This document shows, piece by piece, positions 27,753-59,230 of a DNA stretch of 64,000 nt. A program made the position numbers and the translations under genes. The notes below the pieces were generated by a model. It searched no databases and was not told where the DNA came from. It saw only the letters and a program-made list of their open reading frames with translations. The stretch is from positions 400-64,399 of the forward strand of contig NZ_AOHZ01000018.1 of assembly GCF_000337215.1 (NCBI RefSeq). Direction: 5' to 3'. The DNA is from Natronolimnohabitans innermongolicus JCM 12255 (lineage in GTDB: Archaea; Halobacteriota; Halobacteria; Halobacteriales; Natrialbaceae). Each line of letters begins with the position of its first letter. Within the stretch, counting starts at the first letter, position 1.

Positions 27753-29390
27753 ATGTCGGAACGAAGTGATCTGTGGCGTTCGGATGGTGGGAACTCTGCT
27801 CGATCGACCGGACGGGATGCCGGTCGATCGAGCGACGACGACGTGTCGTCCGGACGATCTCGGCGAACGGTACTGCACGGAATCGCGGCTGCGGGTGTCG
27901 CTAGCGTCGGTCTGGCGTCCAGCGCTGGCGCCTCGACGAGCGCGTACGAACACTATTACGACGAATACGACCGCGTCGTCGACGTCACCGACGTCGGTGC
28001 CGACGCCACCGGTTCGGAATCGATCTCGCCGATTCTCGAGTCCCAGCGAGCGGACGATACGCTGTTTGTCTTTCCCGAAGGGCGGTACTACATGGATTCG
28101 CAGTTTCGGTTTACGGGCTTTGACAACGTCGGGTTCGTGGGTGACGGGGCGACGCTCGTCCCGGCGGACTACCACGCGTTCGACGGTCCCCAGTACCGGC
28201 TGTTTCGGCTGGGCGTCTCGTACGCCCCGGGTCGACGGCTCCGCTTCGAAGGGTTCGACGTCGATCAGACGGCGCCCGACACCGGGATCAGAGCGATCGA
28301 AGCCTACGCGTCCGAGCGCCTCGAGGTGCGCGATATCACGGTCAGGGGCGAACACGACAGCGGAACCTGGGGTCCCGGACTGTTCAGCGTCACCGACCCG
28401 AACGGGACGGGAATCGTCGAGCGGTTCCGGGCGCCCGACGGCGGCGAGTGGGTCGAGGAGACGCCGAACGACGGCAACCGCTGGCGGGGTCCGATCGGGA
28501 TCGAAGCCAACCAGAACGCGGGCACCCTCGAGTTCAGACGCTGCTGGCTCGGCGGCTTCCCCAACAACGGTCTGTACGCGGCGGGTGGCGACGGCAAGAT
28601 CATCGTCAGCGGTGGCCGCTACCGGAACAGCAACGGGGCGAACGTTCGCGTCGGCGGCGACGACAGCGAAATCCGGTGGCCGACGGTCGAAGTCGACGAG
28701 ACGCACCCGCGAGACCGCACCCAGCGGGGCATCCGAATCGAGAACGGTTCGGGCATCGAGATACACGGCGCGCTCGTCGATATCTCCTCGCCGAAACCGA
28801 CGAGTCACGCGATTTCGGTGATGAACTCGTGCGACGACGCCCGGATCGAAAACGTCGAGATCCGACTGCGCGGCGACGACGTCAACCACGGCATCGTCCT
28901 CTCGCCCGAGTGTGGCGAGACGGCGATCGTCGACACCGAAATTACGCACGAGACTGCGGGCGGTTACCCGCTGTGGCTCCGAGACAGCGCCAAGGCCGAA
29001 CCCGTCGTCGTCGAGCATCTCACCGTCTCCGGCGAGGCGGGCGACGAAAGCGGCTTCCGCGACGGAATCCGGTGTGAGCGCGATAACTGCAGATTTAGCC
29101 ACGTCGACGTTAGTCAGCGCGGTCGCGACGGCACAGACCGGAACGCCATCGTCAACACGGGTTCCAACCTGACCGTCTACCGGAGCGAACTGCGCGCCAG
29201 CCAGTACCCCTTCGTCGACCTCGGTTCCGAGTCGCTCGTTCGCGATTCGGACCTCGAGTCGACGGGCGACAACGAGGCCGTCTGCCTCTACGCGTCCGCG
29301 GCGAACCCGTCCTTCAAGAAGAACCGGCTGGCCGGCGGCATCCGCGACCTCGGCGCCAGCGGCGTCACGAACTGGCAGAACGTCTACTAG
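27753..29390 (+). CDS. Tat-exported beta-helix protein
   Basis: The 545-residue protein has a long polar N-region and a Tat signal (SRRTVLHGIAAAGVASVGLA, about residues 36-56). From residue 78 on (VVDVTDVGADATGSESI) it follows the pattern of pectate-lyase-like right-handed beta-helix proteins, with repeats of 20-25 residues such as IRIENGSGIEIHGALVDIS and DARIENVEIRLRGDDVNHG. No classic polysaccharide-lyase catalytic set could be confirmed. Related proteins bind or cut polysaccharides at the cell surface. It opens a locus of glycan synthesis genes and lies 88 bases before the small frame in front of the flippase gene. Confidence 0.8.
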   Translation: MSERSDLWRSDGGNSARSTGRDAGRSSDDDVSSGRSRRTVLHGIAAAGVASVGLASSAGASTSAYEHYYDEYDRVVDVTDVGADATGSESISPILESQRADDTLFVFPEGRYYMDSQFRFTGFDNVGFVGDGATLVPADYHAFDGPQYRLFRLGVSYAPGRRLRFEGFDVDQTAPDTGIRAIEAYASERLEVRDITVRGEHDSGTWGPGLFSVTDPNGTGIVERFRAPDGGEWVEETPNDGNRWRGPIGIEANQNAGTLEFRRCWLGGFPNNGLYAAGGDGKIIVSGGRYRNSNGANVRVGGDDSEIRWPTVEVDETHPRDRTQRGIRIENGSGIEIHGALVDISSPKPTSHAISVMNSCDDARIENVEIRLRGDDVNHGIVLSPECGETAIVDTEITHETAGGYPLWLRDSAKAEPVVVEHLTVSGEAGDESGFRDGIRCERDNCRFSHVDVSQRGRDGTDRNAIVNTGSNLTVYRSELRASQYPFVDLGSESLVRDSDLESTGDNEAVCLYASAANPSFKKNRLAGGIRDLGASGVTNWQNVY

Positions 29391-44980: not shown

Positions 44981-45066
44981 CTATAGTAGCCACTGAAACG
45001 AGTTACACACTGCTCGCGACGCCGTACTGCGAGCAGGTGTGCACTGACGGTCAGTGGCTACTATAG
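44981..45066. repeat. 86-base palindromic element with 16-base perfect ends
   Basis: CTATAGTAGCCACTGA at 44981-44996 is the exact reverse complement of TCAGTGGCTACTATAG at 45051-45066. Inside, CACACTGCTCGC and GCGAGCAGGTGTG pair again with one bulged base, so nearly the whole element can fold into one long hairpin. No coding frame is present. The form is that of a MITE-like or other non-autonomous mobile repeat. The family is not identified. Confidence 0.75.
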
Positions 45067-45071
45067 TGGCT

Positions 45072-45141
45072 TCCCAAGCCTGAACTGATGGGGCGAATCA
45101 TGCGGTATGGTCCGATTCGCCCCATCAGTCGACGCTTGGGA
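45072..45141. repeat. Second palindrome, possible terminator of the GT-C operon
   Basis: ACTGATGGGGCGAATC (45084-45099) pairs exactly with GATTCGCCCCATCAGT (45114-45129) around a 14-base loop. Outside it, TCCCAAGC (45072-45079) pairs with GCTTGGGA (45134-45141). The element starts six bases after the first palindrome and ends six bases before the stop codon of the minus-strand GT-C-like gene. It could be a second mobile repeat or a transcription end signal for that operon. Confidence 0.7.
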
Positions 45142-45146
45142 GGGTA

Positions 45147-47141
45147 CTAGCCTGGGCCGGGCGTACACATCGTCACGTCACCGTTCGTGTAGACCGTGGC
45201 CTGATCCGGCCCGCAGAGTCGATCCTGCGAGACCTGCTCGATCCGCCCCTCGCCGTCGGCGTCCTGGAAGTAGACGGCCTCGCTCGAGGCGGCCGAGCGA
45301 TAGACCGTGTACTCGTGATCTGCACTCTCCCCGTCGGGAACCGTCGCGGTGAACGTCGCCGAATAGGCCCCGGATCTGGTTATCAGCGTCTGATAGGGGT
45401 GGTCGGTGTAGAGGCGCTGATCCGGACGGATTTCGCTCCCGTCCGGCGATCCGGTCATCGCGCCGATCGATTCCGCCGCGGCGAGTTCCGACTCGTCGTA
45501 CGCGAGTCGTTCGTGCTGATTGTCGAAGACCGGGTTGTCGATGTTACTTTCGGCGGCCATCACCATCGCGCCCGGATAGATGAGCACGAACAGCAACAAC
45601 ACGGTGAAGAGGAGTCGCGGCGAGAGGTTGCGATGGAGGGTTTGCAGCCCGATCGCGGCGAGGATCGCCATCGGCCCGTAGAGGAACGCGAACCAGCGCG
45701 TCGGGATGAACGTGTGGATCCCGAACATCGGGAAGCCGAGGACGAACACGAGCATGAACGCCGACGCGAGCAACAGCGTAAACACCGATTGCTCGGCCCG
45801 GCGACGGTGGACGATGTACAGACAGCCGACGAACGTCGCACCGAGGAGCAGGAGGAAGCCGAGGGTGTCGATGTACGGAACGGCCTGATCGAGAAGCGTC
45901 GTCGCGGCCTCGGCGGCCCCCTCCTCGGCCTCCTCGTCGGCCGTCGTTCCGCTCGCGATATTCAGGAAGCCGGCGCTCTCCTCGACGGTCTGGGAGAAGA
46001 AGCTGAGGACGGTCGCGAGGAACGACTGCTCGCGGTAGGGCGTCAGCGACCAGACGAAGATCGTCAGCCCGAAGTTGAAGACGACGAGGCCGATGAGGTT
46101 GACCGGTTTCTTCGTCCGGAACACGCTCGTATCGAGTCGCGTGAGTCCGAGCGGCCCGATCTCGAACACCAGCTGAGCGACGAACGCCGCGAGCAACAAC
46201 ACGAGCATGATGAACGTCGAGACCTGGTGGGTGAGGATGACGGCGACGCTCATCAACAGGAGCAACGAGAAGTCGCGGACCGCATACTCGATGCGCATCA
46301 CGCGGAGCAGGGCGTACAACAACCCGAGGAAGAACACGAGTCCCATACTCGTCGGGATGAGGTGCAGACCCCACATCGAGACGTGACTGGCGATCGCAAA
46401 CAGCGCCGTCGCGAGCGTCGCCCACCGCTGTGGGACCAGCAGGTTCGTCGAGGCGTACACCAACAGGACCGAGAGCGGCATCGCAACTCCCAGCGAGAGA
46501 TACAGCGCGGTCCGCAGCGAAACGTCGAACACGAGCGACGACGCGACTACTAGCAGGTGGTAAAACGGCGACGCGTAGTGTTTGTCGTGGGAGATCCCAC
46601 TAACCGCGCCTTCGGAGGCGATCTGTTCGGTCAGCGCCATGTGCGTCCAGACGTCGATCCCGACGTATCCCGGCGTCGCGTACAGCGCGGTAAACCGGAA
46701 GACGAACGCGAACGCGATGATCTGGAGCAACAGGAGGCGGACGTTCAAATCGTCGTCGGTCGCGAAGACGATCTGGCCGATCAGGAGCGTCCCGACGACG
46801 CTCGCCAGTCCGAAAAAGCGAACCGTTCGTGACCCCTCGAGAACGGTCAGCGCGACCAGCCCCGAGAGACCGACGAGAACGACCGCTGGAAGCGCCATCG
46901 TGATCCGCGACGGGAGCGCCAACTGCTCGTGACCGCTCGAGCGCTGTTGCTGGTAGAGACAGACGAGATAGAGCGCACACGCGGTACCGAGGACTATCGG
47001 GACGGTGTTCAGGTAGATCTGCGACGCCAGCAACCGCAGCGGGAGCAACGCAAGCGCGAGCAACAGCCCAACGATCGCGGCGACCGTGTCGAGTCGGAAC
47101 GGGCGGTGCTCGGAAATCGTGCGAACTGGATTACGTACCAT
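45147..47141 (-). CDS. GT-C-like polytopic membrane protein
   Basis: The 664-residue protein has about 14 hydrophobic segments up to residue 530 and a soluble C-terminal domain of 130 residues, presumably outside the cell. GYVGIDVWTHMALTEQIA near residue 160 sits in the first large outer loop, where GT-C enzymes keep acidic catalytic residues. FGIHTFIPTRWFAFLYGP lies near residue 470. It lacks the WWDYG motif of AglB, so it is not the oligosaccharyltransferase. It may be a lipid-sugar-dependent glycosyltransferase or a polymerase. It is the last gene of a four-gene operon and overlaps the GT4 gene by 11 bases. Confidence 0.75.
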   Translation of the reverse strand: MVRNPVRTISEHRPFRLDTVAAIVGLLLALALLPLRLLASQIYLNTVPIVLGTACALYLVCLYQQQRSSGHEQLALPSRITMALPAVVLVGLSGLVALTVLEGSRTVRFFGLASVVGTLLIGQIVFATDDDLNVRLLLLQIIAFAFVFRFTALYATPGYVGIDVWTHMALTEQIASEGAVSGISHDKHYASPFYHLLVVASSLVFDVSLRTALYLSLGVAMPLSVLLVYASTNLLVPQRWATLATALFAIASHVSMWGLHLIPTSMGLVFFLGLLYALLRVMRIEYAVRDFSLLLLMSVAVILTHQVSTFIMLVLLLAAFVAQLVFEIGPLGLTRLDTSVFRTKKPVNLIGLVVFNFGLTIFVWSLTPYREQSFLATVLSFFSQTVEESAGFLNIASGTTADEEAEEGAAEAATTLLDQAVPYIDTLGFLLLLGATFVGCLYIVHRRRAEQSVFTLLLASAFMLVFVLGFPMFGIHTFIPTRWFAFLYGPMAILAAIGLQTLHRNLSPRLLFTVLLLFVLIYPGAMVMAAESNIDNPVFDNQHERLAYDESELAAAESIGAMTGSPDGSEIRPDQRLYTDHPYQTLITRSGAYSATFTATVPDGESADHEYTVYRSAASSEAVYFQDADGEGRIEQVSQDRLCGPDQATVYTNGDVTMCTPGPG

Positions 47142-59060: not shown

Positions 59061-59084
59061 TACGGTTTACTGTCCGTCAGGTCC

Positions 59085-59116
59085 GGCGCACCCGCCGCCC
59101 GGGCGGCGGGTGCGCC
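59085..59116. terminator. 32-base perfect GC palindrome
   Basis: GGCGCACCCGCCGCCC is followed at once by its exact reverse complement GGGCGGCGGGTGCGCC, giving 16 pairs with no loop. It lies between the convergent GT2 gene (stop 59060) and FkbM gene (stop 59231). It has no T-run, so it may act as a bidirectional structural terminator, or be a mobile palindrome of another kind. Confidence 0.5.
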
Positions 59117-59230
59117 GGGACATCGGTACAGCAATCCGTATGAGTCGGAGACGACGTCGTCTCGTCGTCCCCTCGTGACCGTCTCGCCGATCGACTGTCG
59201 GTGTGGATACGACGGCCGGCGGCGGTCGAA

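Follow-up and report, generated by a model that had tools for sequence, protein, structure and literature searches.

The Stowaway/Tc1-mariner MITEs of plants have TA as their target. An IS630-based transposon is reported to prefer the TA in 5'-CTAG-3' (Tenzen and Ohtsubo, 1991, cited in PMC2170065). In haloarchaea, CTAG is described as an underrepresented motif and as the likely target of a conserved orphan methylase (PMC6471742), and mobility without an intact cognate transposase has been noted for the Haloquadratum MITE HqIRS39 (PMC3119063). Here we describe a hairpin that, judged by sequence comparison, is very probably (roughly 85%) a non-autonomous mobile element (MITE) of the IS630/Tc1/mariner type, with an IS630-type transposase presumably acting on it in trans. 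Elements of this kind are already known, and the novelty lies in the family, in its exact target and in a likely partner.

The hairpin occupies positions 44981–45066 of the window, the 64,000-nucleotide stretch of DNA that we analysed (Table 1). Its inverted ends pair over 16 bases without a mismatch (44981–44996 with 45051–45066), exactly where the initial annotation had placed them; 13 of the 16 bases belong to the element and the other three are target bases. Because an inner stem is also present, the hairpin is nearly continuous over the whole interval, and folding bears out the near-total self-complementarity that had been noticed. With 10-base flanks, the DNA fold reached −31.9 kcal/mol versus a shuffled mean of −14.9 (z = −6.4) and the RNA fold −55.6 versus −32.1 (z = −6.4), with none of 200 shuffles equalling the real sequence in either case. 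A scan of the window for perfect 14-bp arms separated by no more than 70 gave four sites (27798, 44981, 45084 and 59083), and 20 mononucleotide shuffles of it gave none. Two of the other sites, at 59083–59118 and 27798–27833, combine short spacers with perfect inverted arms that are 14 bases or longer.

No ORF of at least 90 aa covers 44981–45066, in agreement with the earlier statement that the element lacks coding capacity, and a heuristic ORF test on the fetched stretches of the source genome found no ORF spanning any copy. The hairpin had also been described as lying in decayed DNA between genes. This holds for its left side, which is a gene-poor stretch, but not for its right side, where the edge of the hairpin abuts a second, different hairpin repeat, followed by the stop of an ORF.

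Table 1. Positions in the window of the hairpin element, its target bases and the adjoining repeat.
Feature	Positions	Strand	Basis or remark
Mobile element proper, 80-bp MITE, TAGTAGCC...GGCTACTA	44984..45063	.	Empty versus filled sites; end conservation in 117 copies
Left TA of the target duplication	44982..44983	.	Comparison of CTAG with CTA[80]TAG
Right TA of the target duplication	45064..45065	.	Comparison of CTAG with CTA[80]TAG
C from the original CTAG target	44981..44981	.	C in 74% of 117 copies
G from the original CTAG target	45066..45066	.	G in 69% of 117 copies
Left terminal inverted repeat (perfectly paired portion, target bases excluded)	44984..44996	+	Outermost TAGTA in common with the ISNma7/ISNamo16 IS630 group
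Right terminal inverted repeat (perfectly paired portion, target bases excluded)	45051..45063	-	
Inner stem and loop of the hairpin	45010..45036	.	Delimited by folding the family consensus
Second 80-bp hairpin repeat, unlike the first, with CTAG borders	45067..45146	.	Left CTAG border is the site that the MITE entered
Intact CTAG border of the second repeat	45147..45150	.	Holds the TAG stop of the minus-strand ORF 45147-47141

BLAST with the element and its 10-base flanks gave 47 matches in the source genome (Natronolimnohabitans innermongolicus JCM 12255, G000; a 4.59-Mb draft in 121 contigs); three of these are the palindrome matched again on the reverse strand. A profile search of the fetched stretches yielded 68 distinct copies or fragments on 35 contigs, about three of which are N-separated duplicates and probably assembly artefacts; 55 of the 68 cover at least 81 of the 86 positions. 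Near-identical adjacent copies with N between them were seen at C84:74446, C15:51837, C50:7395, C17:80289 and C4:9784 of this genome. Such N-separated tandem hairpin copies, and also an IS in G003, are likely to be artefacts of assembly at hairpins.

The 16-base end motif, allowing up to one mismatch, occurs 53 and 48 times in the source genome versus 0 and 0 times for the reversed control; it matches in 28 of 61 genomes, the reversed control giving one or two matches in a few of the other genomes. By BLAST, the element is present in 29 of the 61 genomes, its own included, and 27 of these 29 are from the same family as the source organism. It is also carried by 37 of 72,556 plasmid records, at 134 places, with Haloarcula and Halomicrobium among the hosts. 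None of 50,697 phage records carries the MITE, and viral_contigs contain no exact match to the 25-base end pattern. The repeat is therefore multi-copy in its own and in related genomes, as the initial annotation had anticipated, rather than a single copy at a conserved position, which that annotation had named as the case against mobility.

We determined the boundaries of the element from 117 of 135 unique copies, namely those exactly 86 long. Read from the outside in, conservation starts on the left with the C and a TATA conserved at 83–93% per base; on the right it runs through TATA (86–95%) and the G, and then ends (percentages for C and G are given in Table 1). Conservation that stops at C-TA and TA-G fits insertion into CTAG with duplication of the TA, in the form C-TA-[80 bp]-TA-G. 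An empty orthologous site supports this arrangement: CTAG is uninterrupted in megaplasmid 2 of the haloarchaeon TuA4 at the position of a decayed copy in Natrinema pallidum pNPA200. This was the one orthologous empty allele found, and its filled counterpart, being decayed, has mutated TA copies. Taken together with the borders of the second repeat, which serve as further empty sites, the comparison establishes at the level of sequence that the mobile part is 80 bp and that CTAG becomes CTA[80 bp]TAG; the target duplication that had been looked for at the ends is a 2-bp TA within CTAG. The target is scarce, with 14 CTAG in the window versus 59.5 expected from trinucleotides.

Other searches for empty sites were less informative. 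For two copies of the source genome, the flanks align with orthologous stretches only within genes. In seven stretches from other genera, the gene ends orthologous to those beside these two copies lack the MITE, and these stretches weigh little because the intergenic DNA there is unalignable. For six more plasmid copies, no match joined both flanks without the MITE. We saw no current movement: the closest strain pairs examined, in Halomontanus rarus and in Haloarcula hispanica/CBA1115, share the copy position.

A short, palindromic, extragenic repeat in high copy number could in principle be a REP-type palindrome moved by a REP-associated tyrosine (HUH) transposase, or by an IS200/IS605 relative as in PATE-like elements. 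The anatomy of the ends makes this scarcely credible. PATEs, as described in PMC3119063, possess neither terminal inverted repeats nor a target duplication, and the MITE possesses both, its duplication being TA; REPs are described as 20–40 bp (PMC3733652), and the empty-site comparisons also disfavour such an origin.

The second repeat bears on the insertion anatomy of the MITE. It occurs at 12 places in the source genome, at least two of which are N-separated duplicates, and in 14 of the 61 genomes. Among 27 distinct second-repeat sequences from the fetched loci, CTAG is kept on both sides in 14, and in six a border CTAG is broken by the MITE, as read directly from the junctions; this set is biased, in that L053 and L168 were fetched for their MITEs and the N-separated pairs in C17 and C4 are included. 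The six interrupted borders comprise four in the source genome (C18, which is the window, C4, C6 and C61), one in G016 and one in G033; in the source genome, 4 of the 12 second-repeat places thus have a MITE inserted in a border CTAG. By coordinates alone, the two repeats are also neighbours in G013, G016 and G018. Since the MITE is found at either border, the two repeats do not form one composite element.

In the window, the minus-strand ORF at 45147–47141 (664 aa) has its TAG stop within the CTAG border of the second repeat, and an insertion that duplicates CTAG would therefore spare the stop. We take the second repeat to be, possibly, a MITE of IS5 type that duplicates the 4-bp CTAG. A search of Rfam with this repeat returned only mir-434 matches, far under the family cut-off. 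At L281, second-repeat units stand in tandem with one CTAG in common. One second-repeat copy (L168 near 392, in G033:C5) has CTATAG as its right border and no MITE adjoining; in this one case, the sequence could be the footprint of an excised element that duplicates TA.

The initial annotation had offered a family of structured RNAs as another possibility. Under such a reading, the hairpin would act in transcripts, for example as a bidirectional terminator or a processing site, and would be kept for that function. The RNA fold is very stable, and variation is lower in the stems (0.18–0.20) than in the loop (0.43). Watson-Crick pairing across 112 distinct sequences is 0.795 versus 0.743 for shuffled columns (maximum 0.750), although the column shuffles ignore the relatedness of the copies. 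The excess is found in the inner stem (0.900 versus 0.805) and the outer stem (0.819 versus 0.769), and almost none is found in the middle pairs (0.623 versus 0.610). RNAalifold detected almost no consensus structure in 112 sequences, and pairs were therefore counted on the fold of the consensus sequence, a structure that derives from the same sequences and is thus favoured by the count. Some pairs show changes on both sides (e.g. 13/74, 16/71, 31/55 and 32/54), and double changes at paired sites number 65 versus 49.4 expected.

Comparison of nearest relatives gives a different picture of how individual copies change. For relatives with up to 6 differences, the ratio of one-sided breaks to paired changes is 54:2 in the outer stem and 22:2 in the inner stem; for 7–15 differences, the ratios are 100:12 and 37:13; and for more than 15 differences, they are 95:0 and 22:2. 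These counts suggest that some paired changes separate subfamilies and that single copies mostly decay, from which we infer that selection acts on the copies that move. Placement also counts against a role in transcripts. Copies are mostly intergenic: in annotated plasmid stretches, for which the gene table is incomplete, 18 of 22 lie wholly between genes, four overlap a gene terminus by 12–68 bases, and none of the 22 lies inside an annotated gene. Yet their flanking genes are tandem in 11 cases, convergent in six and divergent in three (two are split by an IS), so that all three kinds of gene pair carry copies and the hairpin has no fixed position relative to genes. No Rfam family matched the element at E values up to 1. 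Given these observations, the breaks that prevail among close copies and the precise CTAG/TA insertion anatomy, we consider a structured-RNA family very unlikely.

We compared the ends of the MITE, TATAGTAGYCASTGAAACG, with those of autonomous elements. Similar ends were found in one set of transposons only, the ISNma7/ISNamo16 group of IS630-family ISs, whose ends read C-TA-TAGTARNC among the DDE_3 (IS630-type) loci of relatives. The members on N. magadii pNMAG02, ISNma7 and ISNamo16, are annotated as IS630-like, and ISs of the group encode a helix-turn-helix ORF that overlaps a DDE_3 ORF. Our IS set came from a scan of GTDB genomes that gave 161 confirmed stretches, of which 80 loci were kept; 69 of these loci provided end pairs, 80 pairs in total, and the length spanned, with both TA copies counted, is 1059 bp in 48 of them.

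On pNMAG02, of which we viewed 250 of 255 kb, both copies annotated as IS630-like lie in MITE copies. In each case, ISNma7 or ISNamo16 has entered the MITE copy at its internal CTAG, with the TA duplicated (L144:14278–15420 and L145:9495–10636), indicating that the target is common to the ISs and the MITE. The MITE lineage split by these insertions carries an internal CTAG and so offers a ready landing site. Apart from these two cases, no half of a MITE adjoined an IS end in the 104 loci fetched around IS630 matches.

Alignment of 234 MITE ends with 127 IS ends showed that, with the target excluded, the commonest base is identical at TAGTA (positions 4–8), C11, T14, A17 and A18. The two sets differ at position 13; at position 15, where the ISs have A in 100% and the MITE has G in 97%; and at position 16, where the ISs have G in 98% and the MITE has A or C. 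The best typed MITE consensus matches a single IS end at 15–16 of 20 bases, three of which are target bases. The expectation of a full IS with the same ends was thus borne out for the outermost bases, which match those of the ISNma7/ISNamo16 group, but not further in, where the ends diverge. Other IS630 groups (L099–L109 and L113–L119) were considered and rejected, as no TATAGTAG-type end pair was seen in them; a lone match with one mismatch occurs in L109.

The similar IS ends, the same CTAG/TA site and the presence of ISs inside MITE copies together point to a MITE of IS630/Tc1 type. The element has the features of a MITE, being 80 bp, non-coding, bounded by inverted ends, dispersed in many copies and flanked by a TA duplication, with ends related to those of an IS. 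The initial suggestion of a MITE-type repeat is accordingly upheld by the copy number, by the TA duplication relative to empty sites and by ISs with the same outermost bases. With regard to the IS630/Tc1/mariner assignment, the duplicated TA target was found, and a transposase in the same genome, whose presence would have been supportive only, was not.

The source genome ranks among the richest in MITE copies despite this lack of a detected IS630-type transposase: its 121-contig draft yielded no DDE_3, no IS-type ends and no matches to the IS OrfB (E up to 1e-10). The draft assembly could miss an IS. An autonomous parent in this genome was rejected: of 13 unpaired exact end motifs, chosen among 100 of 146 matches listed, 11 are MITE copies or fragments by profile, and the remaining two (L121 and L122) have no profile match and look like degenerate or isolated matches. 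The IS OrfB is absent also from four other genomes that carry the MITE (G009, G036, G006 and G005). In G033, the genome richest in copies, there is one OrfB copy with an internal stop; in the copy-rich G019 and G026, OrfB is present. Judging from the source genome and the others without the IS, mobilisation seems to depend either on an ISNma7-type IS that is gained and lost again or on a sister group not yet seen.

It is possible, though we think it the less probable course, that the MITE is moved by an unseen transposase from outside the ISNma7 group, belonging, for example, to an extinct or unsampled IS630 sister group or to another family that happens to duplicate TA. The systematic differences between MITE and IS at end positions 13, 15 and 16 would be explained in this way, as would the copy-rich genomes without the ISNma7-group IS and the assignment of nearly all of the unpaired end motifs above to the MITE itself. 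Nevertheless, the ISNma7 group agrees with the MITE in its outermost bases, in its CTAG target and in duplicating TA, and no other element with MITE ends was found in the searches made. The distribution raises a concrete question, namely how copies multiply in genomes where the matching transposase is not found.

If the element is an IS630/Tc1-type MITE, an IS630-type transposase supplied in trans would bind its inverted ends, excise it and paste it into another CTAG. The transposase would come from the ISNma7 group or from a close sister group, and might be brought in at times, for example by plasmids. The palindrome would be retained in copies that still move, and copies that become fixed would then decay. 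A broader and more doubtful proposal is that haloarchaea harbour an economy of tiny CTAG hairpins, in which the MITE uses up one CTAG per insertion, the second repeat supplies CTAGs at its borders and is entered by the MITE time and again, and the MITE lineage with an internal CTAG receives possible IS630 mobilisers. Under this proposal, the whole palindrome would be selected in mobile copies, and would be kept along its length, and not only at its ends, because transposition needs it.

Among the results listed in a literature search made largely outside subscription journals and without ISfinder, we found no published description of this MITE family. The family is not mentioned in passages of a survey (PMC12306157) and a review (PMC10969869), and the N. 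magadii genome paper (PMC3403918) contains none of the terms 'MITE', 'IS630' and 'inverted repeat'. Within the searched literature, the repeat thus appears to be an undescribed, widespread haloarchaeal MITE family, now with defined boundaries, target and likely mobiliser, and it connects a mobile element with the CTAG motif, which is underrepresented in haloarchaea. Dozens of genomes could be annotated for it immediately, and culturable species allow it to be tested.

The Stowaway/Tc1-mariner MITEs of plants differ from the haloarchaeal MITE in being eukaryotic and longer, and to our knowledge no restriction to CTAG is known for them. They resemble it in being short and, according to PMC6881990, mobilised by a mariner-type transposase. 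The Haloquadratum repeats HqIRS39, SMR-A and SMR-B are, as described in PMC3119063, likewise short, high-copy haloarchaeal repeats that lack a transposase and insert into other repeats. By contrast, the same source describes the SMRs as having no target duplication and ends unlike those of any transposon, a description that sets them apart from the MITE. IS630 of Shigella sonnei is reported to duplicate TA (PMC2170065), as the MITE does; however, it is bacterial and autonomous, and the likeness described here is one of target. The ISNma7/ISNamo16 group differs from the MITE in its length of about 1.06 kb, in encoding a transposase in two overlapping ORFs, and in its nearly invariant A15 and G16, where the MITE has G15 and A or C at 16. 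It nevertheless shares with the MITE insertion into CTAG with duplication of the TA, the outermost TAGTA, C11, T14 and A17–A18.
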